Below, in pieces: positions 9,920-25,284 of a DNA stretch of 64,000 nt. This DNA comes from Vineibacter terrae. GTDB taxonomy: Bacteria; Pseudomonadota; Alphaproteobacteria; Reyranellales; Reyranellaceae. Position 1 is the first letter of the stretch. Each line of letters starts with the position of its first letter. The stretch is from the NCBI RefSeq assembly GCF_008039615.1, contig NZ_VDUZ01000007.1, forward strand, positions 62,001 through 126,000, written 5' to 3'. A program made the position numbers and the translations under genes. The notes below the pieces were generated by a model, which was given only the letters and a program-made list of their open reading frames with translations, ran no database searches and had not been told where the DNA came from.

Positions 9920-10015
9920 GGCGATCTCCGTTGTGGGGAAGACGAACCATAGGCCTGGCACGCGTCGAAGTTAAGCCGTTCTACCGTCAACACCGGGTTC
10001 TGCCCCGGCAAACCT

Positions 10016-10122: not shown

Positions 10123-10130
10123 GAAATTTT

Positions 10131-11114
10131 TTAGCCCTTACCCACGAGGTGGCAGGCGACCCAGTGGCCGGGTGCCGCCTCGCGCAGGGGGACCGGCTGG
10201 GCGCAGATCGGCTGCGCCAGTGGGCAGCGCCCGCGCAGGCGGCATCCTGCGGGGATGTCGACCGGGCTGGGCACCTCACCCGCCAGCGCAAACCGCTCGC
10301 GCCGCGCATCGGGATCGGGGATCGGCACGGCCGAGAGCAGGGCGCGCGTATAGGGGTGCAGCGGATTGGCGAACAGCTCCCGGGTCTCGGCCTGCTCGAC
10401 GATGGCGCCCAGGTACATCACCGCGACGCGATGCGCGAGGTACTTCACCGTGGCGATATCGTGCGAGATGAACAGATACGAGAGCCCACGATTTTCGCGC
10501 AGCGCTTCGAGCAGCAGGATGATGCGCGAGCGCAGCGATACGTCGAGCGCCGAGGTCGGCTCGTCGAGAACGACGAAGCGTGGATCGGTGACGATGGCGC
10601 GTGCGATGTTGACACGCTGCTTCTGGCCGCCCGAGAGTTCGTGCGCGTAGCGCGCCGCAAAGTCGGGCCCCAGGCCGACCGCGACCAGCACGTCATCGAC
10701 GCGCGCGCGCCGCTCGCTCGGCCCGAGCGTGGTGTGCAGGCGCAGCGGCTCCTCGACCATCCGGCGCACCGACAGGCGCGGGTTGAGCGCCGCGGTCGGG
10801 TCCTGGAAGACCATCTGCATGCCGTGGCGCAGGCGTTGCAGAGCTGATCCGTTCAGCCGCGTCACCTCGGTATCGTCGAGCCGCACCGAGCCTGATGTCG
10901 GCTCGACCAGGCGCAGCAGGCAGCGTGCCACCGTGGATTTGCCGCAGCCGGACTCGCCGACCAGCCCCAGGGTCTCACCCGGCGCGATGTCGAACGACAC
11001 GCCGTCGACGGCGCGCACGTCGGTGCGCCGGCCGCGCATGCGGTCGAGCATCGGGCCAAGCCCGCGCATCGGAAAGCTCTTTGAAAGGCCTTCGACCTTA
11101 AGCAACGGCGGCAC
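10131..11114 (-). CDS. Oligopeptide-type ABC transporter ATP-binding protein (DppF/OppF-like)
   Basis: 327 residues with Walker A (GESGCGKST), Q-loop (VFQDP), signature LSGGQKQR, Walker B (FVVLDEPTSALD) and the C-terminal oligopeptide-transporter domain with clustered cysteines (CRLRGRCPLAQPIC). This is the usual second ATPase of Dpp/Opp/Nik importers. The best start is GTG 11114, preceded by CTGGAGGCGAATC; it gives the standard family length and overlaps the previous gene by 17 bp. Longer frames upstream are antisense to nothing useful. It is the last gene of the operon. Confidence 0.92.
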   Translation of the reverse strand: MPPLLKVEGLSKSFPMRGLGPMLDRMRGRRTDVRAVDGVSFDIAPGETLGLVGESGCGKSTVARCLLRLVEPTSGSVRLDDTEVTRLNGSALQRLRHGMQMVFQDPTAALNPRLSVRRMVEEPLRLHTTLGPSERRARVDDVLVAVGLGPDFAARYAHELSGGQKQRVNIARAIVTDPRFVVLDEPTSALDVSLRSRIILLLEALRENRGLSYLFISHDIATVKYLAHRVAVMYLGAIVEQAETRELFANPLHPYTRALLSAVPIPDPDARRERFALAGEVPSPVDIPAGCRLRGRCPLAQPICAQPVPLREAAPGHWVACHLVGKG

Positions 11115-12075
11115 GATTCGCCTCCAGGGCGTGACATGCGACGCGGTGATCGGCCTCGACCACGTCCAGCGACGGCTTGTTCTTGCGGCACACCTCCAGC
11201 GCATGCGGGCATCGCGCCATGTATCGGCAGCCTGGCGAGGCATGCAGCAGCGACGGCACCGCACCAGGGATCGGCTCCAACGCCACCTCGCGGTCGATGC
11301 GCGGAATCGAGCGCACCAGAGCGCGTGTATAGGGATGCAATGGCTGACGGAACAGCGCCCGCACCGTGCCGGTCTCGACCAGCTGGCCGGCATGCATCAC
11401 CGCGACGCGATGGCAGGTCTCGGCGACGACGCCGAGGTCGTGCGTGATGAGGATGATGGCCGCGCCCGTCCTGGTGCCCAGCTCGCGCAGCAAGCCCAGG
11501 ATGCGGGCGGCGATCGAGACGTCGAGGCCGGTCGTCGGCTCGTCGGCGATCAGCAGCTGCGGCGAGCTGGCCAGGGCCATTGCGATCATCACGCGCTGGC
11601 AGGTGCCGCCGGACAGCTGGTGTGCGTATTGCCCCATGCGGCGTGCGGCATCGGGCACGCCGACCTGGTCGAGGGCCTCGATGCCGCGGTTCCAGGCGGC
11701 GCGGCGGGAGAGGTCGCCGTGCAGCTCGAACAGGCGTGCAATCTGAGTGCCGATCGTGATCACCGGGTTGAGCGCCGTGCGCGGACTTTGCGGCACGAGC
11801 GCGATGCGGGCGCCGCGGATGCGCCGCATCTCCTCCTCGGGCAGGGTCAGAAGGTCGCGCCCGTCGAGCCGGACGGACCCGCGCACGATCCGTCCGGGCG
11901 GACGGATCAGGCGCAGGATGGAGAAGCCGGTCACCGACTTGCCGGAACCCGATTCGCCCACAAGCCCCAGGATCTCACCGGCGCCCACCGACAGGTCGAG
12001 GCCGTGCACGGCCTCGACAGGGCCGTCGTCGGTGGCGAAATGCACGGTGAGTCCGCTGACCTCCAGCAAGCTCAT
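11098..12075 (-). CDS. Oligopeptide-type ABC transporter ATP-binding protein (DppD/OppD-like)
   Basis: 325 residues with Walker A (GESGSGKSV), Q-loop (LVPQSP), signature LSGGTCQRV, Walker B (LLIADEPTTGLD) and the oligo_HPY-type C-terminus (HPYTRALVRSIP...CRYMARCPHALEVC). The signature has a Thr-Cys pair before QR where most paralogues have charged residues. The start is ATG 12075, which overlaps the permease stop in GTGATGA; GTG 12078 is an alternative. It pairs with the DppF-like ATPase to power import across the inner membrane. Confidence 0.92.
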   Translation of the reverse strand: MSLLEVSGLTVHFATDDGPVEAVHGLDLSVGAGEILGLVGESGSGKSVTGFSILRLIRPPGRIVRGSVRLDGRDLLTLPEEEMRRIRGARIALVPQSPRTALNPVITIGTQIARLFELHGDLSRRAAWNRGIEALDQVGVPDAARRMGQYAHQLSGGTCQRVMIAMALASSPQLLIADEPTTGLDVSIAARILGLLRELGTRTGAAIILITHDLGVVAETCHRVAVMHAGQLVETGTVRALFRQPLHPYTRALVRSIPRIDREVALEPIPGAVPSLLHASPGCRYMARCPHALEVCRKNKPSLDVVEADHRVACHALEANRAAVA

Positions 12076-12965
12076 CACCGGACTCCCCGCATGCGCGGAT
12101 CCAGCAGGTCACGCAGGCCGTCGCCGATCAGGTTGAAGGCAAGAACCGTGGCCATGATGACAAGGCCTGGAAACACGAACAGCCACCACTCGCCGGTCAC
12201 CATGTGGCTCGCACCCTCGGCGGTCATCTCGCCCCACTCGGCGTCGGGTGGGCGGATTCCCAGGCCGAGGAACGACAGCGCCGCCATGGTGAGCAGCGCG
12301 AACCCCATGGCGAGCGTCGCCTGCACGATCAGGGGTGGGATGCAGTTGGGCAGCAGGTGCACCACGACGATGCGCCAGGACGGATTGCCGACGGTGCGCG
12401 CCGCCTCGGCGTACTCCATCTCGCGCACGCGCAGCATCTCGCCACGGATGAGGCGGATGTAGATCGGGACCTGCGTGATGGCGAGGGTCAGGATGATGTT
12501 GCCGATGCTGTTGCCCAGCGCCGCCGTCAAGCCCATCGCGAGCACGAAGGCGGGAAACGCCAGCACGGCCTCGACCATGCGCATGATGACCTGGTCGACC
12601 CAGCCGCCGCGGTATCCCGACAGCGCGCCGATCAGGGCGCCGATCACCAGAGCGGCGGCGGTCGACGCGAACGGTATGATGAGGTCCAGACGTGCGGCGT
12701 GGATCAGGCGCGAAAGCTGGTCGCGGCCATAGACGTCGGTGCCCAGCAGATTCTGCCAGGTCGGGGCCGACAGCGCGATCGCAGGATCGGTCGCCTCGGG
12801 GTCGAACGGCGCCACGACCGGTGCCAGCACGGCGACAACGGTCAGGACGACGATCACGCCCAGCGCGCCCAGTGTCACAGGGTTGCGCCGCAAGCGCCGC
12901 CACATCGCGGCCAGGGGCCCGCGGCGCTGCGCCGGCAGGGGGAGTGCGGTTGCCGCGTCGGTCAT
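12075..12965 (-). CDS. ABC transporter permease (DppC/OppC-like)
   Basis: 296 residues: short cytoplasmic N-terminus, first transmembrane helix (about 33-57, LGALGVIVVLTVVAVLAPVV), then about five more. The EAA loop is EAARTVGNPSWRIVVVHLLP near residue 205. The post-TM1 segment NLLGTDVYGRDQLSRLIHAARLDL is diagnostic of DppC-type permeases. ATG 12965 overlaps the DppB stop by 4 bp (ATGA). An open frame continuing upstream to 13388 is antisense-free frame extension inside dppB and not part of the protein. Confidence 0.92.
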   Translation of the reverse strand: MTDAATALPLPAQRRGPLAAMWRRLRRNPVTLGALGVIVVLTVVAVLAPVVAPFDPEATDPAIALSAPTWQNLLGTDVYGRDQLSRLIHAARLDLIIPFASTAAALVIGALIGALSGYRGGWVDQVIMRMVEAVLAFPAFVLAMGLTAALGNSIGNIILTLAITQVPIYIRLIRGEMLRVREMEYAEAARTVGNPSWRIVVVHLLPNCIPPLIVQATLAMGFALLTMAALSFLGLGIRPPDAEWGEMTAEGASHMVTGEWWLFVFPGLVIMATVLAFNLIGDGLRDLLDPRMRGVR

Positions 12966-13981
12966 CAGCTCAGCCGGGTGCGGGGGTCGACGACCGCATA
13001 GAGCAGGTCGACGATCAGGTTGACGATCACATACATCACCGCGACGAACAGCACGAACGACTGGATCGGGCCCGAATCCTTGGTCATCAGGGCGGTGACG
13101 GCGTAATTGCCGATGCCGGGCCAGGCGAACACGGTCTCGACCACCGCGTTGCCCGCCATCAGGAAGCCGAACACGACACCCAGCGTGGTGACGACGGGGA
13201 TCAGCGCGTTGCGCAAGGCGTCGCCATAGATCACGCGCCGGCGCGGCAGCCCTGCCGCCCAGGCCGCCGTGATGTAGTCCGACTGCAGGATTTCCAGCAT
13301 GGTGGCGCGCACCATGCGCGCCACCGGCGCCATGACGCTGAACGCCAGCGTGGCCGCCGGCAACGCCAGCTGACCCAGGCTCGACCACAGCGTGCGCCAG
13401 TTCCCGGTCAGCAGCGAATCCACGACGTAAAGGCCGGTGATCGCGGTGGGCGGCGTCAGGCCCGAGGCCAGCCGTCCCAGCGGGGCAGGCGCGATGCCGA
13501 TCAGATAGAAGAGCACGTAGATGAACAGCAGGCCGGTCCAGAAGGTGGGCATCGCGACGCCGGCGACGCCGACGATGCGTCCGACATGGTCGATGGCGGT
13601 GTCACGATGCACGGCCGAGAGGACGCCCAGCGGCACGCCGATCAGAATGGCGAGGATGAGGCTGGCCAGCGTCAGCTCCAGCGTCGCCGGCAGGCGCTGG
13701 GTGAAGTCCTGGAGCACCGGCCGCCCGGTTGCGGCGCTTTCGCCGAGATCGCCGCGGAACAGGCCGCCGACATAGCGGCCGTACTGGACCCACATCGGCT
13801 GGTCGAGGCCCATCTGCCGCTCGACCTCGGCCAGATACTCGGGTGTCGCCAGCGGACCGGCCTTCACCTGCGCCGGATTGCCTGGGAGCATGTAGGTGAG
13901 GAAGAAGCTGATCAGCGTGACGCCGAAAAGCGTGGGAATGACGGACATCAGCCTGCGCAGGACATAGAGCGCTAGCGCCAT
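12965..13981 (-). CDS. ABC transporter permease (DppB/OppB-like)
   Basis: 338 residues: N-terminal YVLRRLMSVIPTLFGVTLISF (TM1), a large periplasmic loop with GLDQPMWVQYGRYVGGLFRGDLG, and five more helices. The EAA-type loop is AAWAAGLPRRRVIYGDALRN. These are standard for the first permease of Dpp/Opp importers. It is 101 bp downstream of the binding-protein gene and overlaps dppC by 4 bp. With the partner permease it forms the substrate channel. Confidence 0.93.
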   Translation of the reverse strand: MALALYVLRRLMSVIPTLFGVTLISFFLTYMLPGNPAQVKAGPLATPEYLAEVERQMGLDQPMWVQYGRYVGGLFRGDLGESAATGRPVLQDFTQRLPATLELTLASLILAILIGVPLGVLSAVHRDTAIDHVGRIVGVAGVAMPTFWTGLLFIYVLFYLIGIAPAPLGRLASGLTPPTAITGLYVVDSLLTGNWRTLWSSLGQLALPAATLAFSVMAPVARMVRATMLEILQSDYITAAWAAGLPRRRVIYGDALRNALIPVVTTLGVVFGFLMAGNAVVETVFAWPGIGNYAVTALMTKDSGPIQSFVLFVAVMYVIVNLIVDLLYAVVDPRTRLS

Positions 13982-14082
13982 CGTGCTTCGGCCTCACTCT
14001 GCATGCATCTCAAGAGCAGAAAGTCCGGGATGCACGGATCGAGCCGGATCCCGGACGCAATCTTTCATATGAGCGTCGCCGC

Positions 14083-15711
14083 TCAGGCAAGCTTCATGCC
14101 GTAGTAGCGCTCGAACGTGTCCCAGCGCTTTTCGACGCCAACCAGATCGGCGCGCATCACGCGTGTCCAGCTGTCGTACCACAGAAAGCCCCAGACGGCA
14201 TCGTCGATCAGGATCTGCTGCGCCCGCCGGGCGGCGGCCAGGCGGCTGGAGCCGTGGGGGCTGCGCATGTTCTCCTCGATCAGCTTGTCGAGCTCGGGAT
14301 TGGCGTAGAACGCCGTGTTCGTGGTGACCGACTTGCTGTGGAAGTTGAAATGGAGGTGGTAGAACGGATCGTTGATCCACGACTGCCACGTCTCGATCGA
14401 GAGCTGGTGGCCGCCTTTCGATGCGACCTGCCGGAAGGTCGCGTCCGTCTCCTTGACGATGTTCACCTTGAAGCCGATCTGCTCCAGCTCGCGCTGGATC
14501 CACACTGCCGCCTGCTCGTGCGGCTGCCAGCCCACGCGCACGGCCAGCTCGATCGTGATCGGCAGCGGCCCGACCCCGGCTTCGCTCATCAGGGCCTTGG
14601 CCTTGGCGATATCGTGCTTGTAGGGCGAAAGCTTGTCGTCGTAGCCCGGCGTCAGGCTCGGCACGGGGCTCTTCATCTGCGTGCCGTAGCCGAACAGCAC
14701 GCTGGGGATGATGGCGTTGATCGGAATGGCGTAGTTGATCGCCTGCCGCACCTTGACGTTGTCGAACGGCGCCTTCTTGGTGTTCATGCTGAGCCAATGG
14801 CAGGTCGTGTCCGGCACGCTGAAGATCTTCAGGCCGGCCTCGCCTTCGAGGCTCTTCACGTTGCGCGGTGACAAGCCGGGACGGCCGGTCACGATATCGA
14901 CCGCGCGGCGCTTGAGCAGCAGCACGCGGTCGGCCTCGCTGGGCACGAACTTGAACACCAGCCGCTGAAAGAACGGCTGCGGCCGCCAATAGTTCTTGGC
15001 TGCCTCCAGCACGACCTCGACACCCGGCTCGTTCTTCACCAGGCGATAGGGGCCGACGCCGGCGACGTTGCGCTTCAGCCAGTCCGTCGCCCACGGATCC
15101 TTTTCGCTCGCATGTGCCTTCACCTCGTCGGGGTCGAGGATGGCGTTGTTCGACAGCGCCAGCACGTCGAGCGCCATGGGGCTGGGAGCCGGCATCTCGA
15201 TCGCCAGGGTCTTGTCGTCGCGCACGACGATCTGCTCGGGCTTCGTGACGCCGAGCAGGACCGGGAACAGCAGCCGGATGTAGCCAGGCGACTGCAGGCC
15301 GCGGTCGAAGGCGTATTTGACGGTATGGGCGGTGACGGGCTTGCCGCTCGGCAGGGTGAGGCCGTCGCGGATCTTGAGCACCACCGTGGCGCCGTCCTTC
15401 TCGAACGACCATGCCTGGGCGGCGCTGGGATCGAACTCGCCAGGCCGCGAGCGGAACAGGCCGGGCTTGCCTTGCTCGGGCTGCACCTTCCACATCAGCG
15501 GGCTGTCATAGACATTGGCCTGGACCACGTAGGCGCCGATCGACTTGAACGCCGCAGGGTCCAGCGTGTCGATATCGGTGTCCCACGCGATGGTGAGCGT
15601 GCGCACATCCTGCGCCGCAGCGCGCTGCGTGAAGGCGGTGCCCGCCAGCGCCAGCGAGGTCGCGCCGCCCGCCAGCTTGAATACGTCCCTTCGCCTCAGA
15701 TCGTCGACCAT
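14083..15711 (-). CDS. ABC transporter substrate-binding protein, family 5 (DppA/OppA-like), Tat-exported
   Basis: 542 residues, periplasmic solute-binding protein of family 5. The N-terminus has a twin-arginine motif RRRDVFKLAGG followed by a hydrophobic stretch and an AAA-QD cleavage site near residue 34. The mature part starts LTIAWDTDIDTLDPA, typical of the family. Start ATG 15711 has AAAGGGGAGCGCG. Family 5 proteins bind di- and oligopeptides, nickel chelates, opines or other small organics, so peptide specificity is not implied. It is the first gene of the importer operon and diverges from the IclR gene at 15904. Confidence 0.92.
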   Translation of the reverse strand: MVDDLRRRDVFKLAGGATSLALAGTAFTQRAAAQDVRTLTIAWDTDIDTLDPAAFKSIGAYVVQANVYDSPLMWKVQPEQGKPGLFRSRPGEFDPSAAQAWSFEKDGATVVLKIRDGLTLPSGKPVTAHTVKYAFDRGLQSPGYIRLLFPVLLGVTKPEQIVVRDDKTLAIEMPAPSPMALDVLALSNNAILDPDEVKAHASEKDPWATDWLKRNVAGVGPYRLVKNEPGVEVVLEAAKNYWRPQPFFQRLVFKFVPSEADRVLLLKRRAVDIVTGRPGLSPRNVKSLEGEAGLKIFSVPDTTCHWLSMNTKKAPFDNVKVRQAINYAIPINAIIPSVLFGYGTQMKSPVPSLTPGYDDKLSPYKHDIAKAKALMSEAGVGPLPITIELAVRVGWQPHEQAAVWIQRELEQIGFKVNIVKETDATFRQVASKGGHQLSIETWQSWINDPFYHLHFNFHSKSVTTNTAFYANPELDKLIEENMRSPHGSSRLAAARRAQQILIDDAVWGFLWYDSWTRVMRADLVGVEKRWDTFERYYGMKLA

Positions 15712-15844
15712 CGCGCTCCCCTTTATCGCCCTGTGATGGCGGCCCGTCACCGAGCGCGCCGGAACTGCCGTTCCTCCACGTCACCAGTGTCCGGCGCGGG
15801 TCTTGCCCCGCGTTCCGAGACGTCCCCGCACGCAAGAGAGCTTG

Positions 15845-15874
15845 AATAAATCGTGTGGTTGCATTATTGTCAAC
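15845..15874 (-). promoter_or_regulatory. Promoter of the importer operon with overlapping GTTG-N9-CAAC site
   Basis: On the minus strand TTGACA (15868-15873) is followed after 17 bp by TTTATT (15845-15850), a reasonable sigma-70 pair aimed at the binding-protein gene. A symmetric GTTG-N9-CAAC (15858-15874) covers the -35, and further half sites (GCAAC, TCAAC) lie at 15891-15903 just before the IclR start. The layout suggests that the divergent IclR regulator controls both directions. Consensus matches are by eye. Confidence 0.45.
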
Positions 15875-15903
15875 TCCAGTTCCATTTTTTGCAACTTTCA
15901 ACG

Positions 15904-16686
15904 ATGTCAGCCCTCTCGAACGCAGTATCCGTGCTGCGTCTCTTCTCCACGGAACGGCCGGAGCTCTCGGTCACCGAAGTCTCGCGGCTGCTCGACATGC
16001 CGAAGAGCTCGGCCTCGCGGCTGCTCAAGTCGATGCTGCGGGAAGGGCTGCTGGCGAACGTGGGGGCGACACCGCGCTACCGCGTCGGCCACGTGTTCTT
16101 CGAGATCTCGCGTCTGTACGGACGCAATTCGACCTTGATGGATCTCACCGACAACGCGTTGGGCGAGATCTGTCGCGCGGTGCGGCACGGCGGCTATATC
16201 TCCATACTCGACGGCGCTGATGCGCTGGTGCTGCGCGCCTATATCGGACCCGAGACCCTGCGCGTGGTGACGCCCTTGGGCAGCCGCATGGCGGCGTTCG
16301 CGACCTCGACCGGCCGGACGCTGCTGGCACGGCTGAGCAACGAGGCCATCAAGGCGTTGCATCCGCAGCCGCTCGTGCCGCCTTCGCCGAACGCGCCGCA
16401 GAACATGGGCGAGCTGATGGAGCGCATCGACCAGATCCGCCGCTGCGGCTGGTGCGAGGCGATCGACGAAGGCGTGCCGGGCGTCGGGTCGGTGGCGGTC
16501 AGCATCGCGGATCGGGCAAGTGCGGAGACGCTGGCGTTCTGCGTGTCGTTCCCGGCGCATCCGGTGTCAGAGCTGGAGCGCCGTCGCTTCGCCGTGACGC
16601 TGACCGATGCCGCGCGGCGCCTGGCGACGCAGGTCGATGATCAATTCTGGACGCGGGTGAAGGCCCCCAAGGCAGTTGCGGCATGA
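15904..16686 (+). CDS. IclR-family transcriptional regulator
   Basis: 260 residues: winged HTH (about 5-60, AVSVLRLFSTERPELSVTEVSRLLDMPKSSASRLLKSM) and an IclR effector domain (about 75-250, with GRTLLARLS and the Cys/Asp-containing CGWCEAIDEGVPGVGSVAV). IclR proteins usually repress or activate nearby catabolic operons and bind a pathway intermediate. I use ATG 15904, which gives a normal length; there is no good RBS, and GTG 15853 in frame is an alternative. It overlaps the DUF917 gene by 4 bp and is divergent from the importer operon, so it probably senses the imported substrate (inference). Confidence 0.9.
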   Translation: MSALSNAVSVLRLFSTERPELSVTEVSRLLDMPKSSASRLLKSMLREGLLANVGATPRYRVGHVFFEISRLYGRNSTLMDLTDNALGEICRAVRHGGYISILDGADALVLRAYIGPETLRVVTPLGSRMAAFATSTGRTLLARLSNEAIKALHPQPLVPPSPNAPQNMGELMERIDQIRRCGWCEAIDEGVPGVGSVAVSIADRASAETLAFCVSFPAHPVSELERRRFAVTLTDAARRLATQVDDQFWTRVKAPKAVAA

Positions 16687-17750
16687 GAGAGCTTTCCGCT
16701 GACGATATCGAAGCGCTGGCCGTGGGTGCCTGGATCCTGGGCACGGGCGGCGGCGGCAGTCCGTATCACGGGCTTCTCAACATGCGCCGGCTCTACGACG
16801 AGGGGCTGCGCGTGACCCTGATGGACCCGCAGGCGCTGGCCGATGGCGACGACGTCGCCGTGGTGTCCTACATGGGCGCGCCGCTGGTGACCCAGGAGCG
16901 CCTCGTCGACAGCCGCATGACGGCGCGCTCGGTCGAGGTGATGGAGGAGTATATCGGCCGCAAGTTCAGGGCGGTGATGGCGATCGAGATCGGCGGCGGC
17001 AACGCGATGCAGCCGCTGATGGCCGCGGCGCACCTGAAGATCCCGGTGGTCGACGCCGACGCCATGGGCCGGGCCTATCCGGAAGCGCAGATGACCACCT
17101 TCGCGGTCGGTGATCTCGCGCCGGCACCGCTCACGTCGATCGACCCGCGCGGCAACGAGGTGATCGTCTCGCGCGCCGCGACCTGGAAATGGATGGAGCG
17201 CACCAGCCGCAAGGTGTGCACCGAGTTTGGCTCCATCGCTGCCACCTGCAAGGCGCCGCGCACCGGCGCGGAGGTCAAGCGCTGGGGCATTCCCTACACC
17301 ACGACCAAGGCCATCAACCTGGGCAAGGCGGTGATGGACGCCAACCGCCGCCACGAAGATCCGATCGCGGCGATCCTCAAGGCCGAACGCGGCAAGCGGT
17401 TGCTGGCCGGCAAGGTCGTCGAGGTCGAGCGGCGCACCACGGAAGGATTCCTGCGCGGCCGTGCCGTGCTGGAGAGCGACGGGCGCGAGACGATCGTGCT
17501 GGATTTCCAGAACGAATGGACGGTGGCCTGGCACGACGGCCGGCCGCTGGCGTCGACGCCGGAGCTGATCTGCGTGCTGGACAGCGACAGCGGCGAGGCG
17601 ATCGGCACCGAGATGGTGCGCTACGGACAACGCGTCACCGTGATCGTGCTGCCGTCGCCGGAGATCTTCCTCACGCCGCGCGGCCTGCAGAACGTAGGGC
17701 CGCGCGCGTTCGGCCATGACATCGACTTCCGCTCGGTATTTTCATCGTGA
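16683..17750 (+). CDS. DUF917-family protein (S-methyl thiohydantoin desulfurase-like)
   Basis: 355 residues covering a whole DUF917 domain: N-terminal AVGAWILGTGGGGSPYHG, then EIGGGNAMQPLMAAA, VVDADAMGRAYPEAQM and a C-terminal PEIFLTPRGLQNVGPRAFG. DUF917 includes an S-methyl thiohydantoin desulfurase but most members are uncharacterised; many are encoded next to HyuA-type hydantoinase subunits, as here. Both ends overlap the neighbours by 4 bp, so it is translationally coupled to the regulator and the HyuA-like gene. A role in processing a hydantoin-like or lactam ring is inferred from the family and the neighbourhood. Confidence 0.9.
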   Translation: MRELSADDIEALAVGAWILGTGGGGSPYHGLLNMRRLYDEGLRVTLMDPQALADGDDVAVVSYMGAPLVTQERLVDSRMTARSVEVMEEYIGRKFRAVMAIEIGGGNAMQPLMAAAHLKIPVVDADAMGRAYPEAQMTTFAVGDLAPAPLTSIDPRGNEVIVSRAATWKWMERTSRKVCTEFGSIAATCKAPRTGAEVKRWGIPYTTTKAINLGKAVMDANRRHEDPIAAILKAERGKRLLAGKVVEVERRTTEGFLRGRAVLESDGRETIVLDFQNEWTVAWHDGRPLASTPELICVLDSDSGEAIGTEMVRYGQRVTVIVLPSPEIFLTPRGLQNVGPRAFGHDIDFRSVFSS

Positions 17751-19327
17751 AACGCATCGGTATCGACGTCGGCGGCACCAACACGGATGCCGTCCTGATC
17801 AATGACGGCCGTGTCGACGGCGCCGTCAAGGCATCGACCACCGCCGATGTGACCGGCGGCATCCTCGCCGCGATGCGTGCCTTGCGCGCGCAGTCGGGTG
17901 ACGGGGCCGACGTCGACGCCGTGCTGGTCGGCACGACTCACTTCATCAACGCGGTGATCCAGCGCAAGCAGCTGCACAAGGTCGCCGCCATCCGGATCGG
18001 CGCGCCGGCCACGACGGCGTTGCCGCCGTTCTGCGACTGGCCCCGCGACCTGGCGCACCTCGTGGACGGCGGCATCTGGATGATCGAGGGCGGCCACGAC
18101 TACGATGGCCGCCGGTTCATGCCGCTTAACGTCACGCAGGTGCGCGAGGCGGCGCGCGAGATCAGGCGGCGCGGGCTGGCCTATGCGGCGGTCACGGCCA
18201 TGTTCTCGCCGCTCGATCCCTCGGACGAGGATGCGGTGGCGGCGATCCTCCAGGAGGAGGTGCCGGGGATCTCGGTCACCTGCTCGCACATGCTGGGCGG
18301 CATCGGCGTGCTGGAACGGGAGAACGCGGCGCTGCTGAACGCGGCGCTGATCGCACTTGCCCGCGATACCGTCAAGGGCTTCGAGGAGGCGATGCGCAGC
18401 AGCGGCATCGATGCGCCGCTCTTCATCACGCAGAACGACGGCACGGTGGCTGCCGCGGCGCACGCCGTCGCGCTGCCGGTCTACAGCTTCGCCTCGGGGC
18501 CGACCAACTCGATGCGCGGCGGCGCATACCTGTCGTCGCTGCAGGAGGCGGTGGTGGCCGATGTCGGCGGCACCACCACCGATTTCGGTCATCTGCAGAA
18601 CGGCTTCCCGCGCCAGGCCAACACGGTCGTGCATATCGGCGGCGTGCGCACGCTGTTTCGCATGCCCGACCTGATCTCGATCGGGCTTGGCGGCGGCAGC
18701 CTGGTCGATACCGAAAAGATGACCATCGGGCCGCAGAGCGTCGGCTTCCGGCTGACCCAGGAAGCCCTGGTGTTCGGCGGCACGCAGCTCACGGGCACCG
18801 ATATCGCCGTGGCTGCCGGCTTGCTCGACATCGGCGAGCGGCAGCGGGTTGCACATCTGCCGGCGGCCCTGATCAAGGGCGCGCTGAGGCGCGCCCAGGC
18901 CATGGTCGAAGAGCATGTCGATCGCATCAAGACGGCGGCCGGTGGCGTGACCCTGCTGGCGGTCGGCGGCGGCGCGTTCCTCATCCCCGATCGCCTCGAG
19001 GGCGTGGATCGCGTCATCCGCACGGAGCATGGCGGCTGCGCCAATGCCGTGGGTGCGGCCATTGCGCAGGTCAGCGGTGACGTTGACCAGGTCTTCCAGG
19101 ACCTGTCGCGGACCGAGGCTGTTGCCAAGGCCCGCGCGCTGGCCGATGAACGCGCCGTGGAGGCGGGGGCCGATGCCAGCACGCTTTCGCTGGTCGAGGC
19201 CGAGGACATCCCGATCGCCTACCTTCCCGGCAACGCGCTGCGCGTGCGCGTGAAGGTCGTCGGTGACATCAATTCCAGGCAAGGGAGCACGCCAAATGCC
19301 CGTGACGTTCGTCATCAGCACGCTTAA
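17747..19327 (+). CDS. Hydantoinase A/oxoprolinase-family ATPase (HyuA-like)
   Basis: 526 residues of the hydantoinase A/5-oxoprolinase family. The N-terminal Hydant_A_N domain opens with RIGIDVGGTNTDAVLI, the phosphate-binding loop of the ASKHA fold; the central hydantoinase_A domain includes SGPTNSMRGGAYLS and VVADVGGTTTDFGHLQNG. It is shorter than HyuA of the classical HyuAB pair (about 700) and no HyuB partner is nearby; DUF917 is the coupled partner instead. Known relatives use ATP to open hydantoin or oxoproline rings. It overlaps DUF917 by 4 bp and the next gene by 32 bp. Confidence 0.9.
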   Translation: MKRIGIDVGGTNTDAVLINDGRVDGAVKASTTADVTGGILAAMRALRAQSGDGADVDAVLVGTTHFINAVIQRKQLHKVAAIRIGAPATTALPPFCDWPRDLAHLVDGGIWMIEGGHDYDGRRFMPLNVTQVREAAREIRRRGLAYAAVTAMFSPLDPSDEDAVAAILQEEVPGISVTCSHMLGGIGVLERENAALLNAALIALARDTVKGFEEAMRSSGIDAPLFITQNDGTVAAAAHAVALPVYSFASGPTNSMRGGAYLSSLQEAVVADVGGTTTDFGHLQNGFPRQANTVVHIGGVRTLFRMPDLISIGLGGGSLVDTEKMTIGPQSVGFRLTQEALVFGGTQLTGTDIAVAAGLLDIGERQRVAHLPAALIKGALRRAQAMVEEHVDRIKTAAGGVTLLAVGGGAFLIPDRLEGVDRVIRTEHGGCANAVGAAIAQVSGDVDQVFQDLSRTEAVAKARALADERAVEAGADASTLSLVEAEDIPIAYLPGNALRVRVKVVGDINSRQGSTPNARDVRHQHA

Positions 19328-19616
19328 GCCGGGCGTCGACCCGGCCGACTATGAGCGCTGGGTGCGTGAGCGCGACTACGCGTACACGCGCAGCAATCCG
19401 AATTTCATAAGCTACGTCGTGCATCGCATTGATGCGCCGGTCGAAGGCGTCCCGAATGCCGGCTGGCGCTACGTCGAGCGCATCGAGGTGAAGGACGCCG
19501 AGCAGCATCGCAAGGACCTCGCCTCGCCCGAGGGCAAGGCCCTGCTCGATGAGCTCTACGGACAGTTCCTGGACCGCACCAAGAACGTCTATATCCGGAC
19601 CAACGTGGTCGACTAG
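19296..19616 (+). CDS. Small dimeric alpha/beta-barrel protein, HapK/RedY-like
   Basis: 106 residues, start ATG 19296 after AAGGGAG. The pattern (VTFVISTLKPGVDPADYERWVRERDY, then GWRYVERIEVKD and a C-terminal FLDRTKNVYIR) suits a ferredoxin-like dimeric barrel and looks most like the REDY/HapK family, named after prodigiosin-like pathway proteins of unknown activity. Such proteins also occur beside oxygenases. The long 32-bp overlap with the HyuA-like gene argues for coupled expression. I am fairly sure of the fold but not of the family name. Confidence 0.65.
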   Translation: MPVTFVISTLKPGVDPADYERWVRERDYAYTRSNPNFISYVVHRIDAPVEGVPNAGWRYVERIEVKDAEQHRKDLASPEGKALLDELYGQFLDRTKNVYIRTNVVD

Positions 19617-19622
19617 AACGTC

Positions 19623-19649
19623 CCTTCTCTCCGCTGCGCGGAGAGAAGG
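19623..19649 (+). terminator. 12-bp stem-loop inside the operon
   Basis: CCTTCTCTCCGC (19623-19634), a TGC loop and the exact complement at 19638-19649 form a strong hairpin in the 70-bp gap between the HapK-like and LLM genes. No U-tract follows, so it is more likely an mRNA-stabilising or attenuating structure than a full terminator. The same pyrimidine/purine palindrome style recurs at 55.7 kb, so a dispersed repeat is possible. Confidence 0.5.
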
Positions 19650-19686
19650 TTGGAAGCAGCACTTCACTCCACCCGGGATCCGTATC

Positions 19687-20721
19687 ATGACCATCGAGCT
19701 GCTCGTTCTCGGCGATTCCTCGATCAACCGCATGGTCGAGAGCGTCAAGCTCGCCGAGGCCAACGGCTTCGACAAGGTCTGGCTTGCAGACGAGCGCTTC
19801 TACCGCGAGGTCTATTCCTGCCTCTCGATCTTCGCCGTCAACACCTCGCGCGTGAAGCTCGGCCCCTGTGTCACCGATCCATTCGCGCGGCACCCGGCGC
19901 TCACCGCCATGGCGATCGCGACCCTGGATGAGATTTCCGGCCAGCGCGCCATTCTCGGCCTCGGGGCCGGCATCTCCGGCTTCGGCGAGCTGGGCATCGT
20001 CCACAACAAGCCGCCGCGCGCGATCCGCGAGTCGATCGCGCTGATCCGGGAGCTGCTCAAGGGCGGCCAGGTCGATTTCCAGGGCGAGGTCATCAAGTTC
20101 AACGACGGCCATCTGAGCTTCAAGCCGGTGCGGTCCGACATCCCGATCCATGTCGCCAGCAACGGCCCCCTGGGGCAGCGTGCGGCAGGGGCCGTCGCGG
20201 ATGCGCTCATCATGGAGGCTTGCGGCTCGGTGGCTGAGGTGCAGGCGCTGAAGGCCGAGATCGTGCGCGGGGCGCAGAAAGCCGGGCGTGATCCGGCCGA
20301 GGTCAAGCTGGTCGCGCGCCTGAACGCCTGCGTCGACAACGACGGCCGCGCCGCCCGCGATGTCGTGCGGCCCGGTGTCGCCCGCCTGCTGGGCCGCGGC
20401 TCGCTGAAGCTGGCCACTGCCGAAGCGGAGGGCCTGACGCTGCCGGCCGACGCCGTCGCCTCGGTGGGACCGGCGCCCTACGCCGAGGGCGTGAAGCCCT
20501 ATCTGAAGCTCCTGCCGCTGGTCTCCGATCGTCATGTCGACGCCTTCACACTGGCAGGCACCGCCGATGAGATCACCGAGCACGTGATTGCGTTGCGCAA
20601 GGCGGGTATCGATTCGATCATCATCCGGCCACTGGCCAGCCCGGGCTGCTCGATCGACGATACGATCAGGATCTTCGGAACCCGTATCTGGCCAGCGGTG
20701 GAGGCTGCGACCCCGGCATGA
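19687..20721 (+). CDS. LLM-class flavin-dependent oxidoreductase
   Basis: 344 residues of the luciferase-like monooxygenase/F420-dependent reductase (LLM) superfamily, a TIM-barrel enzyme using FMNH2 or F420H2. Visible features: an initial strand with MVESVKLAEANGFDKVWLADERF, the mid-barrel LGLGAGISGFGELGI, and DIPIHVASNGPLGQRAAGAVADALI. Members hydroxylate or open rings and oxidise aldehydes. ATG 19687 has only a weak RBS; the frame upstream is non-coding. The stop overlaps the next gene's ATG by 4 bp, so it belongs to the same operon as the molybdenum hydroxylase. Confidence 0.88.
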   Translation: MTIELLVLGDSSINRMVESVKLAEANGFDKVWLADERFYREVYSCLSIFAVNTSRVKLGPCVTDPFARHPALTAMAIATLDEISGQRAILGLGAGISGFGELGIVHNKPPRAIRESIALIRELLKGGQVDFQGEVIKFNDGHLSFKPVRSDIPIHVASNGPLGQRAAGAVADALIMEACGSVAEVQALKAEIVRGAQKAGRDPAEVKLVARLNACVDNDGRAARDVVRPGVARLLGRGSLKLATAEAEGLTLPADAVASVGPAPYAEGVKPYLKLLPLVSDRHVDAFTLAGTADEITEHVIALRKAGIDSIIIRPLASPGCSIDDTIRIFGTRIWPAVEAATPA

Positions 20722-21590
20722 GCTTCCAGGTGCACCATCCGCAGTCCGTCGCCGACGCGATCGCGCTGTCGCAGCAATTCGGCGATGCAGGGCGCTTCAT
20801 CGCCGGCGGCACGGATCTGGTCATCCAGATCAACCGCAAGCGGCAGACGCCGGCGCACCTGATCGATCTCAATCGCCTGGACGAGCTGGCCGGGATTGCG
20901 CAGACGCCGGATGGCTTCGCGATCGGCGCGCTCGCGACGCACAAGGCGGTCGAGCGGCATCCGCCGTTCCAGGACGCATTGCGTGGCCTGGTGGAAGCCG
21001 CGCGCGTGGTCGGTGGGCATCAGGTCCGCAACATCGCGACCGTCGGCGGCAACATCGCCAACGCATCGCCGGCCGCCGATGTCGTCGTGCCGCTGCTGGC
21101 GCTGGACGCCCGTGTATCGCTGGTCGGTCCGCGCGGGGCGCGCACATTGGCGCTGGGCGATTTTCTGCTCGGGCCCGGGCGCACGGCGCGCGAAGCCGGC
21201 GAGCTGATCGATTGCATTCACATTGCACGGCTGCCGCAACGCAGCGCCACGGCGTTCCTCAAGGCTGGCCGCCGCAAGGCGATGGAGATCTCCGTGGTCT
21301 GTGTCGCGGCACGCCTCACGCTCGATGACGAAGGGCGCTGTGCGGCTGCTTCCCTCGCTCTGGGCGCCGTCGGCGCGACCGCCATGCGGGCCGGAGAGGC
21401 GGAGAAGGCCTTGGTCGGCCGCGTTCCGGACGACGCCGCGTTGCGCGACGCCGCGCAGGCGGCGGCGGCCGCCTGCAACCCGATCAGCGACGTGCGCGCC
21501 TCGGCACGCTACCGCCGCCTGCTGGTGGAGGCGCTGGTGCCGCGCGCGCTGCGGATCTGCGTCACGCGGATCCGGGAGGGGCGGACGTGA
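20718..21590 (+). CDS. Molybdenum hydroxylase FAD-binding subunit (CoxM/XdhB-like)
   Basis: 290 residues of the CO-dehydrogenase flavoprotein-like family. FAD-binding motifs are FIAGGTDLVIQI (P-loop like, near 30) and TVGGNIANASPAADVVVP (near 108), then the C-terminal CO_deh_flav_C domain. It transfers electrons from the Fe-S subunit to an acceptor. It is coupled to the LLM gene (4-bp overlap) and to the Fe-S subunit gene. The three subunits are ordered M-S-L as in cox operons. Confidence 0.93.
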   Translation: MSFQVHHPQSVADAIALSQQFGDAGRFIAGGTDLVIQINRKRQTPAHLIDLNRLDELAGIAQTPDGFAIGALATHKAVERHPPFQDALRGLVEAARVVGGHQVRNIATVGGNIANASPAADVVVPLLALDARVSLVGPRGARTLALGDFLLGPGRTAREAGELIDCIHIARLPQRSATAFLKAGRRKAMEISVVCVAARLTLDDEGRCAAASLALGAVGATAMRAGEAEKALVGRVPDDAALRDAAQAAAAACNPISDVRASARYRRLLVEALVPRALRICVTRIREGRT

Positions 21591-22090
21591 TGCGCAATCC
21601 CCTGACGCTGACGATCAATGGCGAGCAGCATGACCTGCTGATCGAGCCGCATTGGACGCTGCTGCACGTCCTGCGGGGCCAGATCGGCCTTGCCGGCAGC
21701 AAGGAGAACTGCCTGGAAGCCGAATGCGGCGTCTGCACCGTGCTGCTTGACGGCAAGGCCGTGAATTCCTGCATTCTGCTGGCGTCGCTGTGCGCCGGAC
21801 GCAGCATCGTCACCATCGAGGGCCTGGGCGACCCCGAGCATCTGCATCCGCTGCAGGCGGCATTTGTGAAGCACGGGGCCGTGCAGTGCGGCTACTGCAT
21901 CCCCGGCATGATCCTGACCGCCAAGTCGTATCTCGACGAGCACCCGGATCGCATGCCGTCCCGCGACGAGATCCGCGAGGCGATCTCCGGCACCCTCTGC
22001 CGCTGCACCGGCTACCAGAAGATCATCGACGCCATCGCTGCGGTGGCGGCCGAGCGCGCCGGGAAAGGGGCACAAGAAGATGCGCCCTAA
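21590..22090 (+). CDS. Molybdenum hydroxylase 2Fe-2S subunit (CoxS-like)
   Basis: 166 residues. The N-terminal plant-type cluster uses C41, C46, C49 and C61 (CLEAECGVC...NSC); the C-terminal helical cluster uses C100, C103, C137 and C139 (CGYC...CRC). This is the complete set for the small subunit of CO-dehydrogenase/xanthine-oxidase-type enzymes. The start is ATG 21590, with GGGAGGGGCGG nearby; GTG 21587 in frame is an alternative. It shares 11 bp with the large-subunit gene. Confidence 0.94.
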   Translation: MRNPLTLTINGEQHDLLIEPHWTLLHVLRGQIGLAGSKENCLEAECGVCTVLLDGKAVNSCILLASLCAGRSIVTIEGLGDPEHLHPLQAAFVKHGAVQCGYCIPGMILTAKSYLDEHPDRMPSRDEIREAISGTLCRCTGYQKIIDAIAAVAAERAGKGAQEDAP

Positions 22091-24350
22091 CCAGAACACG
22101 GTCGCCGGTCGGCGGCTGCCGCGCCTCGATGGCGCCGCCAAGGCGACCGGCCGCTACGTCTACGGCACGGATGTCACCTTGCCGGGAACGCTCTACGGCA
22201 AGGTGCTGCGCAGCGACATGCCGCATGCGCGCCTGACGCGGATTGATGTCAGCGCCGCCCGCGCCATGCGCGGCGTGCGCGCCGTCATCACCAGCGCCGA
22301 CGTGCCGCAAGTACGCTACGGCAATGCCGTCAAGGACCAGACGGTGTTCGCGACCGACACGGTGCGGTTCGTCGGGCATCCACTGGCGGCGGTGGCAGCC
22401 GACACGCTGGAGATCGCCGAGCAGGCGTTGAGCGCGATCGCGGTCGAGCTCGAGCCGCTGCCGCCGCTGTTCGATCCCGAGGCGGCGCTGGCACCCGACG
22501 CGCCGCTGCTGCATCCGGACTGGCAGGACTACGTCGCGCTGCCGGTGATCGCCCGCGAAGGCAATATCGCCGGTCGCTCCCGCATGCGGCACGGCGATGT
22601 CGAGGCTGCCTTCGCGCAGGCCCATCGCGTCTACGAGCACCGCTTCACCACGGCGCTGCAGCACGCCGGCTATACCGAGCCGCGGGCGGCATCGGCGGCG
22701 TGGGACAGCACCGGCGTGCTCACCGTGTGGTCGAACGGCCAATTGCCGTTCGAGGTGCAGGCCACGCTGGCTGACATCCTGGAATTGCCTGTTTCGCGCA
22801 TCCGCGTGGTGGTCCCCGGCATCGGCGGCGGCTTCGGCGGCAAGCTGCGGATCGGCGTCGAGCATTTCGCGGCGCTGCTGGCGCGCCAGTCCGGCCGTCC
22901 GGTGAAGATGATCACCACCAGCGAGGAAGAGCTGATCGCGGCGCATCCGCGCCAGGCCGCGATCATCACGGTGAAGACCGCGGTCAGCGCCGACGGTCGG
23001 ATCCTGGCCCGCCAGGGGCGTGTGGTCGTCGATTGCGGCGCCTGCTCGGGCTCGGGGCCGGGCACCGGCGCGGTCGCGCTGCAATGCCTGGTGGGTCCGT
23101 ACCGCACACCGAACCTGCTGATGGAGAGCCTCGCCGTCTACACCAACAAGGTGCCCAGCGGCTCGTTCCGTGCGCCGTCCGGTCCGATGGCGAACTTCGC
23201 CGTCGAATCGCAGATGGACATCATCGCGAAGGATCTCGGCATCGATCCGCTGGAGATCCGGTTGCGCAACATCGTGCGTGAAGGCGACCTCGGGCCGGCC
23301 GGCGAGGTCCTGAAGGATGTCAGCATCGAGGAATGCCTGCGCCGCGCCGCCGATGCCATCGGCTGGCATGACCGCGCCGCAGAGCCGGGCCGTGGCAAGG
23401 GTATCGCCTGCAGCTGGTGGATGACCACGGGCGGCTCGTCGGCCGTGTTCATCAAGCTCAACGGCGATGGGACCGTGGCCCTCACCAGCGGCGCCGTCGA
23501 GCTCGGCACCGGCGCCCTCACCGGCGCGGCGCAGATCCTGGCCGAGGAATTGTCGCTCGATCTCGAGGATGTGCGGGTCGCGACCGTCGACACGCTGCAT
23601 GTGCCCTACGACTATGGCGCGCAGGGCAGCCGTACCGCGTTTTCCGTCGGCAATGCCTGCCGGGCCGCGGCGGCCGATCTGCGGCAGCAGCTGTTCGCGC
23701 TGGTCGCGGCCCAGCATGGCGTGCCGGCCGAGGAGATGATGCTGCGCGACAAATGCGTGGTCGCGGGCGACAAGCGCATTCCCCTGGCCGACATTGCGCG
23801 CCAGCAATACACGGGCGGCGGGCTCGTCGCGCGCGGCACCGCGCTCAATCCGCCGCCGGCCTACGATCCCGCACGCGTGGAGAACCACCCGCTGCCGGTC
23901 TGGAACACGCCGAGCTTCCACGCGCACGCCGCCGATGTGAGCGTCGATACCGAGACCGGTGAGGTGACGATCAATCGCTACGTGGTGGCGCAGGACGTCG
24001 GCTATGCGATCAACCCGACCTACATCGAAGGCCAGATCGAGGGCGGCGTGAGCCAGGGCCTGGGCCAGGCCTTGTCGGAGGAGATCGTCTACCAGGACGG
24101 GCGCGTGCTGAACGCCAACCTCACCGACTACAAGATGCCGACGTCGCTGGACGTGCCGCCCATCGAATCGATCCTGGTCGAATGCCCGAGCGCCGCCGGC
24201 CCATACGGCGCCAAGGGTGTCGGCGAGCCGCCCTGCATCGAGCCGCCGGCCACCATCGCCAACGCCGTCGCCGCGGCGACCGGGTTGTGGATCACCTCGC
24301 TGCCGATCACGGCCGAGAAGATCCTGCTGCGCTTGAAGGGCGAGCCGTAG
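22080..24350 (+). CDS. Molybdenum hydroxylase catalytic subunit (CoxL/XdhA-like)
   Basis: 756 residues: Ald_Xan_dh_C type N-terminal domain (about 15-125) and the large molybdopterin-binding domain (about 135-750). Visible are GIGGGFGGK for cofactor contacts, SGSFRAPSGP in the substrate-binding loop, and the C-terminal catalytic Glu in AKGVGEPP. It lacks the AYRCSFR copper-cysteine loop of true CO dehydrogenases, so it should hydroxylate an organic substrate such as a purine, nicotinate or other N-heterocycle at a carbon next to N (known for this family; substrate inferred). Confidence 0.93.
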   Translation: MRPNQNTVAGRRLPRLDGAAKATGRYVYGTDVTLPGTLYGKVLRSDMPHARLTRIDVSAARAMRGVRAVITSADVPQVRYGNAVKDQTVFATDTVRFVGHPLAAVAADTLEIAEQALSAIAVELEPLPPLFDPEAALAPDAPLLHPDWQDYVALPVIAREGNIAGRSRMRHGDVEAAFAQAHRVYEHRFTTALQHAGYTEPRAASAAWDSTGVLTVWSNGQLPFEVQATLADILELPVSRIRVVVPGIGGGFGGKLRIGVEHFAALLARQSGRPVKMITTSEEELIAAHPRQAAIITVKTAVSADGRILARQGRVVVDCGACSGSGPGTGAVALQCLVGPYRTPNLLMESLAVYTNKVPSGSFRAPSGPMANFAVESQMDIIAKDLGIDPLEIRLRNIVREGDLGPAGEVLKDVSIEECLRRAADAIGWHDRAAEPGRGKGIACSWWMTTGGSSAVFIKLNGDGTVALTSGAVELGTGALTGAAQILAEELSLDLEDVRVATVDTLHVPYDYGAQGSRTAFSVGNACRAAAADLRQQLFALVAAQHGVPAEEMMLRDKCVVAGDKRIPLADIARQQYTGGGLVARGTALNPPPAYDPARVENHPLPVWNTPSFHAHAADVSVDTETGEVTINRYVVAQDVGYAINPTYIEGQIEGGVSQGLGQALSEEIVYQDGRVLNANLTDYKMPTSLDVPPIESILVECPSAAGPYGAKGVGEPPCIEPPATIANAVAAATGLWITSLPITAEKILLRLKGEP

Positions 24351-24353: not shown

Positions 24354-25220
24354 CTACCGGCCTGCGGTCGCCATCGGCAGCGACGGATCCGTCGCCCACT
24401 CCTGCAGCGAGTTGTCGTACACCGTCACGTCACGGTGTCCCAGCACGGCCTTCAGCGCGAAGGCATCGCCGGTGGCGGCGATGCCGCCGCCACAATAGGC
24501 GACGACCCGCCTGCCGTCGCGCGCGTCGACAGTCTCGAAGATCTTGGCGAGCTCGGCAGGCGACTTGAAGGTATTGTCCGGATTGAACAGCCCGGCCGCC
24601 GGCACGTTGAGGCTGCCGGCAATGTGGCCTGGCCTGCCGTAATGGACGGGGCTGCTGCCGTCATGCTGTTCCGGCCGCAGGCAATTGACGACCACGGCGT
24701 TGTTGTCGTCCAGGGCTGCAAGCACGCCCTGCTTGTCGACAAAGGCCTCCGCCCGCGGCCGCGCCGTCAGCGCCGCCGGCGGATAGGTGCGTGCCGCCTT
24801 TTCCAAGGGGCGTCCCTCCGCCATCCACTTCTTCAGGCCACCATCGAGGACGGCGGCACGGTCGAAGCCGATCGACCAGAGCAGCCACCAGACGCGCGTT
24901 GCCCACCAGATGTCGCCGTCGCAGTACAGCACCACGTCGCTGTCGTCGCCGATGCCCTTGTCGGCAAAAGCACGGGCCAGCGTGTCGGGCCGCGGCGCGG
25001 TGAAACGCAGCTTGCTGGCCGGATCGGAAAGGTCGGCCTGCAGGTCCAGCAGCACGGCACCGGGAATGTGGCCGCGCTCATCGTAGAGCCGACGGCCGGT
25101 CTCGATCGTGAAGCCACCCTCCGGCCGCGGCCGCAGGAAGGTCGTGCAATCGAAGACGAGCGGAGCCGCCGGGCTGCTCAGCCGCGCTGAAAGGTCAGCC
25201 GTTGAAATCAGGACATCCAC
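24354..25220 (-). CDS. Rhodanese/3-mercaptopyruvate sulfurtransferase-like, two domains
   Basis: 288 residues with two rhodanese domains. The N-terminal domain (about 5-135: LVFDCTTFLRP, DERGHIPGAVLLDL) is non-catalytic; the C-terminal one carries the active-site Cys in VVAYCGGGIAAT, a Gly-rich version of the usual CGSG loop. These enzymes move sulfane sulfur from thiosulfate or 3-mercaptopyruvate to thiophiles. I prefer GTG 25220 as start because GGAGGTGATC, a perfect Shine-Dalgarno match, lies just before it; ATG 25235 in frame is the alternative. It is convergent with the operon's last gene, 3 bp apart, and preceded by a long structured leader. Confidence 0.88.
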   Translation of the reverse strand: MDVLISTADLSARLSSPAAPLVFDCTTFLRPRPEGGFTIETGRRLYDERGHIPGAVLLDLQADLSDPASKLRFTAPRPDTLARAFADKGIGDDSDVVLYCDGDIWWATRVWWLLWSIGFDRAAVLDGGLKKWMAEGRPLEKAARTYPPAALTARPRAEAFVDKQGVLAALDDNNAVVVNCLRPEQHDGSSPVHYGRPGHIAGSLNVPAAGLFNPDNTFKSPAELAKIFETVDARDGRRVVAYCGGGIAATGDAFALKAVLGHRDVTVYDNSLQEWATDPSLPMATAGR

Positions 25221-25284
25221 GATCACCTCCGCCATGGCCGGCGGCGAGAATGGATCATGATGGGGGAAGGGCTCAAGGCCATCG

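Follow-up and report, generated by a model that had tools for sequence, protein, structure and literature searches.

Among the described systems closest to the gene cluster considered here are the reductive uric acid pathway and the F420H2-dependent picrate reductases. The cluster, a 13-gene unit, occupies positions 10131-24350 of a 64,000-nucleotide stretch (hereafter the window, G000:C7:62001-126000) of the 8.76 Mb genome of Vineibacter terrae, and joins a family-5-type importer and an IclR-family regulator to a DUF917 protein, a HyuA-type ATPase, a HapK-like protein, a member of the luciferase-like monooxygenase (LLM) family and a three-subunit molybdoenzyme. The reductive uric acid pathway (XdhD, YgfK/UacX, SsnA, HyuA and YgeW/Y/X), as far as the available part of its 2025 description goes (PMC12507026), likewise unites a molybdoenzyme of the xanthine dehydrogenase family with ring reduction and ring opening, and for uricolytic clusters of Chloroflexota the same text suggests a putative F420-dependent luciferase-family reductase in reductive uric acid breakdown. 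In the picrate reductases (Fht) of Rhodococcus, Nocardia and Nocardioides, an F420H2-dependent LLM serves the catabolism of an electron-poor ring; the excerpt of the 2021 review that describes them (PMC8498797) states that, in bacteria other than Actinobacteria, neither F420H2-dependent reductases nor F420-reducing dehydrogenases had yet been studied by experiment, and it names the purpose of F420 synthesis in Proteobacteria among the questions still to be answered. In the open-access literature, mostly titles and the beginnings of abstracts, we found neither a described pathway with the gene set of the window, in agreement with a preliminary description of the locus made from its sequence, nor, in titles and abstract beginnings, an experimentally studied proteobacterial F420-dependent reductase. 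The parts are of known kinds, and their combination and its F420 link in these bacteria appear to be undescribed. With moderate confidence, we regard the unit as an F420-dependent catabolic island for a small organic compound, most likely an N-heterocycle.

The preliminary description had taken the LLM protein for a ring-opening monooxygenase. In profile comparisons it gave 264, 263, 262, 243, 206 and 191 bits with six Mer chains, 84-96 bits with other F420 enzymes (its relatives include FGD and Adf) and at most 60 bits with FMN monooxygenases (best 7bip); pairwise, the score was 177 bits with jMer (34% identity), 45 with RutA and 40 with SsuD. Mer is its best full-length match, and in sequence the protein stands nearer to the F420-dependent members of the LLM family than to those that use FMN. 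The best NCBIfam model, F420_mer (TIGR03555), was matched at 217.8 bits, below its cut-off of 348.7. Glu6 and Asp96, given as the catalytic residues of Mer in the accessible part of PMC11094777, are aligned with Leu6 and Ile96, and an invariant ADERF motif stands where Mer has TDHY. Because both catalytic residues are replaced, the Mer reaction itself is unlikely, and together with the protein's own ADERF motif this change makes a substrate other than that of Mer probable; Mer itself was rejected as an identity on these residues, and the host pathway differs as well. Since the Mer-like sequence is accompanied by the co-occurrence and linkage of CofD described below, the LLM is probably an F420H2-dependent reductase and not an oxygenase, and its use of F420 is very likely. 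The ring-opening monooxygenase was dropped as first choice, sequence and F420-gene linkage both pointing to F420-dependent hydride transfer.

In the genome of the window, CofC, CofD, CofE, CofH and FGD all score over their cut-offs, on contig C6. An LLM-alignment scan of the species-genome collection gave 26 loci, and CofD is above cut-off in 24 of the 24 genomes behind 25 of them (the other locus, L063, comes from an assembly of the same strain as L045); with G000, G325 and G580, all 27 island carriers checked have CofD. As background, 58 of 385 sampled Alphaproteobacteria have CofD over the cut-off, and the four LLM carriers found there are all CofD-positive. In Bradyrhizobium, CofD is over the cut-off in 34 of 195 genomes (35 at E 0.001) and LLM was found in at least seven of the 195, all with CofD (hypergeometric p 3.5e-6, kinship ignored). 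Among 146 relatives, 67 have CofD at E 0.001, including 11 of 11 LLM carriers (p 1.2e-4, kinship ignored).

The two genes are also physically linked. In all seven Bradyrhizobium carriers CofD and the LLM share a contig, 6.3 kb apart, and in six of them this is the sole CofD match. In B. jicamae, the genes after that of the molybdenum cofactor (Moco) subunit encode, in order, a ThiS-like protein, NpdG (174 bits against a cut-off of 150), a regulator of the Lrp type, CofE, CofD and CofC; in B. valentinum FbiC comes next (1058 bits, cut-off 1018), and beyond it lies a second block that has a further binding protein, an LLM and a short-chain dehydrogenase/reductase (SDR). In the Ferrovibrio locus L048, from a metagenome-assembled genome (MAG), CofE-CofD-CofC stand directly after the Moco and ThiS genes, 4.7 kb from the LLM, and this CofD is the sole match. 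In G409, a 36% LLM match is located about 5 kb from CofE, CofD, CofC and FbiC, with an FGD-like gene in between.

The components of the unit, with the basis of each assignment, are as follows (ORF, open reading frame; ABC, ATP-binding cassette).

10131..11114, minus strand: importer ATPase 2 (ABC_tran + oligo_HPY); Pfam on the longer ORF 10131-11393, start from codon scoring
11098..12075, minus strand: importer ATPase 1 (ABC_tran + oligo_HPY); Pfam (ORF 11098-12078), start from codon scoring
12075..12965, minus strand: importer permease 2, OppC type; Pfam on the longer ORF 12075-13388 and NCBIfam, start from codon scoring
12965..13981, minus strand: importer permease 1, DppB type; Pfam
14083..15711, minus strand: family-5-type solute-binding protein; PDB sequence matches (best E 7e-42) to DppA and similar binding proteins
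15867..15895, no strand: promoter/operator-like element, TTGTCAAC plus the palindrome GTTCCAT-N3-TTGCAAC
15904..16686, plus strand: IclR-family regulator; Pfam, ATG 15904 likely, inferred from the translation
16683..17750, plus strand: DUF917 / S-Me-THD-like protein; PF06032 188 bits, PF20906 212 bits
17747..19327, plus strand: short HyuA-type ATPase, 526 residues; PF05378, PF01968
19296..19616, plus strand: HapK/REDY-like small protein; PF11639 E 2e-8, profile match to 2jdj E 3e-10
19687..20721, plus strand: Mer-like LLM protein, predicted F420-dependent reductase; PF00296, Mer-like sequence, CofD co-occurrence
20718..21590, plus strand: molybdoenzyme FAD subunit, no 4-Cys insert seen; Pfam, Cys positions
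21587..22090, plus strand: molybdoenzyme [2Fe-2S] subunit; Pfam
22080..24350, plus strand: molybdoenzyme Moco subunit, xanthine dehydrogenase family, like 4-hydroxybenzoyl-CoA reductase/XdhA; Pfam, NCBIfam, PDB

All genes named earlier, from the minus-strand importer to the plus-strand genes running from IclR to the Moco subunit, are present by Pfam and PDB matches, and the unit itself stands, its number of genes being corrected from 'eleven or so' to 13. Codon scoring and alignment served to refine the gene starts; for IclR, whose ORF opens at 15853, codon scoring chose 15931 instead of 15904. In ORF coordinates the reported overlaps are retained (4 bp for IclR/DUF917, 4 bp for DUF917/HyuA, 32 bp for HyuA/HapK with the HapK ATG at 19296, 4 bp for LLM/FAD, 1-4 bp for FAD/[2Fe-2S] and 11 bp for [2Fe-2S]/Moco), but HapK and the LLM (aligned start ATG 19687) are separated by a 70-bp gap and do not overlap. 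Directly to the left of the importer, two pirin genes (7072-7950 and 8996-9961, minus strand) lie around a LysR gene, and a convergent rhodanese gene (24354-25235) comes after the Moco gene.

In the gap between the divergent importer and IclR genes, TTGTCAAC contains, on the minus strand, a TTGACA that resembles a -35 box of the importer. This pattern and the palindrome, both composed after inspection of the gaps, each occur once in the window against 0.01-0.02 expected. When 16 related loci were searched, TTGTCAAC-N3-5-GTTNCA was present in the same gap in six (L041-L046, all Bradyrhizobium), and the palindrome pattern in L040, in L041 and, a single time and within a predicted binding-protein ORF, in L062. 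We infer from these sequences that the element may act as promoter and operator.

As proposed in the preliminary description, the same gene set was sought in other genomes, and the full order of a divergent importer followed by IclR-DUF917-HyuA-HapK-LLM-FAD-[2Fe-2S]-Moco was found in eight loci: L041-L046 (Bradyrhizobium), L048 (Ferrovibrio) and L051 (Caldovatus). L059 keeps the window order as far as its contig end, and across these nine loci the core proteins are 51-79% identical; chance would not account for such conservation. A HapK search over the 146 relatives led to 15 genomes, and 12 stretches were taken for comparison, 11 around HapK matches and a twelfth covering the other DUF917 site in the genome of the window; reduced forms of the island occur in Reyranella relatives. 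Among the 26 loci, close importer homologues (at least 55% identity) are found in 20, the molybdoenzyme, at least in part, in 18 (some others are cut by contig ends), HapK in 18, DUF917 near the LLM in 13 and HyuA in 11, while L064 is an LLM alone and L060 an LLM with distant importers. L040, from the nearest relative, has IclR-HapK-LLM-FAD-[2Fe-2S]-Moco without DUF917 and HyuA, and the pair was not found in the examined stretches of six islands in all (L040, L050, L052, L054, L055 and L062). In the L062 genome, a DUF917-HyuA pair (52 and 57% identical to that of the window) is located on another contig (L033), with another importer and about 6 kb beyond a HapK pair. L050, L052, L054, L055 and L062, together with L047, whose contig begins at the LLM, form one LLM clade (SH-aLRT 100), so the pair was probably lost or never gained in that clade. 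The conserved importer-plus-enzyme unit described earlier is upheld, but DUF917 and HyuA do not belong to all islands; what varies less is the set of importer, IclR, LLM, molybdoenzyme and, in most, HapK. A very divergent DUF917 (28-31% identical) stands beside the LLM in L056 and L061, and is also found in L082. An LLM search of plasmids returned only two records, both archaeal, with identities of about 30%; they were not taken as carriers, and the searched plasmids thus have no close island.

Further features accompany some of these islands. A ThiS/MoaD-like protein (76-77 residues, GG end) follows the Moco subunit in 13 loci (L041-L048, L050-L052, L054 and L062; in L041 at 14671-14904), and its gene was looked for in the window and not found. 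In L061 and L082 (Ferrovibrio, genus mate G580), a DUF917 of 28-29% identity is accompanied by the LLM and two molybdoenzymes, and the importer of L061 is of another type, with an NMT1/THI5-like binding protein; such binding proteins are of the type that binds pyrimidine-like ligands. The second block of B. valentinum (L067 7622-18932) contains DUF1028, SMP-30, BKACE (above the NF053538 cut-off), GntR, the second binding protein and the second LLM; no intact permease was recognised in it, and an 82-residue permease-like piece is present in L069. In L063 and L069, the second block of the Bradyrhizobium island includes HapK as well. In B. vignae the second LLM copy is split into two pieces (L063 5865-6885), and other Bradyrhizobium have intact copies. 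The genes between the two Bradyrhizobium LLM copies (BKACE, SMP-30, DUF1028 and others) were considered as a clue to the substrate and gave no agreed one, and quinolizidine alkaloids (lactams of the lupanine type), suggested as substrate by the host plants of B. valentinum and B. retamae, were dropped as unsupported.

As for the remaining enzymes, DUF917 belongs to the same two-domain Pfam family as S-methyl thiohydantoin desulfurase and thiohydantoin desulfurase, but it reaches only 112.8 bits with NF058532 (cut-off 450) and 95 bits with NF058529 (cut-off 440), both far below; 46 columns are invariant across 12 aligned proteins. In HyuA, the ATP-binding motifs DVGGTNTD, DVGGTT and GLGGG are invariant in eight of eight aligned proteins. 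As stated earlier, no HyuB is present among the annotated genes of the unit, where HyuA has only 526 residues (the rest of the genome was not searched), and DUF917 proved to be the usual neighbour of HyuB-less HyuA. The pair recurs at a second site of the genome (L036, G000:C8:70500-90000), where an SBP_bac_8-type binding protein, an ABC ATPase, AroM (PF07302), two DUF917 and HyuA occupy 6881-13956 and no LLM or molybdoenzyme match was found in the stretch; AroM and DUF917 are mentioned together in PMC11055893. HapK is counted, in the available text of PMC8093152, among proteins that share their fold with RslO4, a monooxygenase that needs no cofactor. The molybdoenzyme belongs to the hydroxylating family, with a 290-residue FAD subunit that has five scattered Cys and no evident 4Fe-4S insert. 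4-Hydroxybenzoyl-CoA reductase has an extra 4Fe-4S insert in its FAD subunit, and the Moco subunit of the window gives 546 bits with the alpha model of that enzyme (cut-off 995). Thiohydantoin desulfurases, caprolactamase, 4-hydroxybenzoyl-CoA reductase and xanthine dehydrogenase were all rejected as identities, being below the NCBIfam cut-offs.

In the proposed pathway, the family-5 importer, controlled by IclR together with the enzymes, would bring the compound in, and the three-subunit molybdoenzyme would oxidise (hydroxylate) or dehydroxylate the ring. The Mer-like LLM would then reduce a C=N or C=C bond in the ring by hydride transfer from F420H2, after which HyuA would activate the resulting lactam or imide with ATP and DUF917 would complete the opening; HapK-like proteins may aid an isomerisation or cyclisation step. 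This scheme of molybdoenzyme, LLM and HyuA/DUF917 covers every enzyme of the unit except HapK. The order of steps, the role of HapK and the substrate class are what we infer; an N-heterocycle is plausible by analogy, and the chances of reductive ring chemistry are a little short of even.

Several facts weigh against this reading. In the genome of the window, the F420 genes are on a different contig from the island. Within family f1, CofD is present in 56 of 75 genomes and the 11 of 11 carriers there reach only p 0.03 (kinship ignored), which is weak because most f1 genomes have CofD; many carriers are related and are not independent counts, and carrier counts are lower bounds, the LLM genome searches having scored the best 5-14 candidates per genome. 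In the LLM tree, branches are long and the deep forks weak, both catalytic positions of Mer are changed, and 9hav, a 'Luciferase family protein' that may use another cofactor, scores 92 bits, level with the other F420 enzymes. Moreover, a flavin reductase gene (PF01613) adjoins the island in L057, L059 and L065, as an FMNH2 monooxygenase would have, and this is the main fact in favour of the LLM being an FMNH2-dependent two-component monooxygenase that would oxygenate or open the ring after molybdenum hydroxylation, similar to RutA or SsuD; PF00296 does include such enzymes. However, FMN monooxygenases score far under Mer, no flavin reductase is among the annotated genes adjoining the window unit (no partner was looked for elsewhere in the genome), genes related to that of L057 occur in only three of the 26 loci (unlike ones could be missed), and CofD is present in every carrier checked and within the island itself in Bradyrhizobium and Ferrovibrio. 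An FMNH2-dependent oxygenase is thus quite improbable.

The LLM might also be an F420-reducing dehydrogenase for an alcohol or amine, as the related FGD and Adf are, with the molybdoenzyme oxidising the aldehyde, and then no heterocycle would be required. Aldehyde oxidoreductases do fall within the molybdoenzyme family (PDB comparison), and SDR genes adjoin in L050, L052, L055 and L056; yet F420H2 suppliers are encoded (NpdG beside the island in B. jicamae, FGD in the window's own genome), Mer, the nearest LLM relative of known function, is a reductase, and DUF917 and HyuA would have no role, and we consider this unlikely. Finally, DUF917 and HyuA could form a separate hydantoin or lactam cassette merely sharing the IclR operon with an unrelated LLM/molybdoenzyme pathway, which would fit both the six islands without the pair and the second cassette, with its two DUF917, HyuA and AroM, elsewhere in the same genome. 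The presence of DUF917 near the LLM in half of the 26 loci, including very divergent forms and, in L061, another importer type, speaks against this separation, which is doubtful but deserves to be kept in view.

Under the reading of an F420-dependent catabolic island, its occurrence among bacteria of soil and water would offer one explanation, open to testing, for their making the rare cofactor F420. Since in six Bradyrhizobium genomes and in the Ferrovibrio MAG the sole CofD match sits beside the catabolic operon, a one-gene deletion would test what F420 is for, and the island also offers a way to test the roles of DUF917 and of HyuB-less HyuA. According to the accessible part of PMC8407117, nodule competitiveness in S. 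meliloti has a statistical association with F420, molybdoenzyme and PyrC genes, so modules of this kind may be relevant to the fitness of rhizobia.

Searching plasmids for CofD yielded 39 records, of which 13, picked for annotation and genus spread, were compared from incomplete gene tables. An LLM is listed in ten of these regions, the others being those of Aromatoleum, Paenarthrobacter and Thermomicrobium. The Leisingera plasmids (L086, L095) carry a nucleobase symporter, dihydropyrimidinase (hydA), a Zn hydrolase, an aminotransferase and PntAB beside cofG/H/D/C/E, npdG and a TIGR03842 LLM, and dihydropyrimidine dehydrogenase is not listed in these stretches; the clusters are candidates for an F420-dependent reductive pyrimidine pathway. 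On pSymA of S. meliloti (L083, CP130049.1 31100-71945), pyrC, a branched-chain-type importer, npdG, cofD/C/H and an LLM are found with an ArgE/DapE deacylase, PntAB, a three-gene molybdoenzyme of the xanthine dehydrogenase family and a PALP fragment, a gene content that resembles the reductive uric acid pathway in a form using F420. The region of Agrobacterium rubi has PxpA and carboxyltransferase-domain genes (the 5-oxoprolinase kind), and that of Variovorax an amidohydrolase and a C-N hydrolase. Tentatively, many Proteobacteria may make F420 mainly for modular reductive N-heterocycle pathways, in which an importer, an LLM that reduces the ring with F420H2 and, optionally, a molybdoenzyme are combined with an exchangeable ring opener (dihydropyrimidinase, PyrC-type, 5-oxoprolinase or, in the window, HyuA-DUF917), the window being the flavour in which DUF917 would stand for HyuB in an ATP-dependent lactam or imide opener. 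It counts against this generalisation, and also against the reading of the window unit given above, that evident ring openers were found in only five of the 13 regions and none was counted in the other eight (the nitrilase-related gene of Thermomicrobium was not included), so the pattern of F420-LLM with ring opener is a lead.

Compared with the reductive uric acid pathway, the window unit has only the molybdoenzyme and the candidate reductase of that set; SsnA, YgeW, YgeX and YgeY are not in it. The HyuA of the uric acid pathway (IPR011778) is a dihydropyrimidinase-type enzyme, whereas the window has an ATPase-type HyuA with DUF917, a family-5 importer and an aerobic alphaproteobacterial host. 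The Fht picrate reductases differ in being actinobacterial, and no molybdoenzyme, DUF917 or HyuA is known from those systems. The clusters of Leisingera, S. meliloti pSymA and A. rubi have other importers and other ring openers than the window, and their LLMs are of other subfamilies (21-26% identical to that of the window over 200-329 residues); their likeness to it lies in the combination of F420 synthesis genes, an LLM, a transporter and a ring-opening hydrolase or lactamase.

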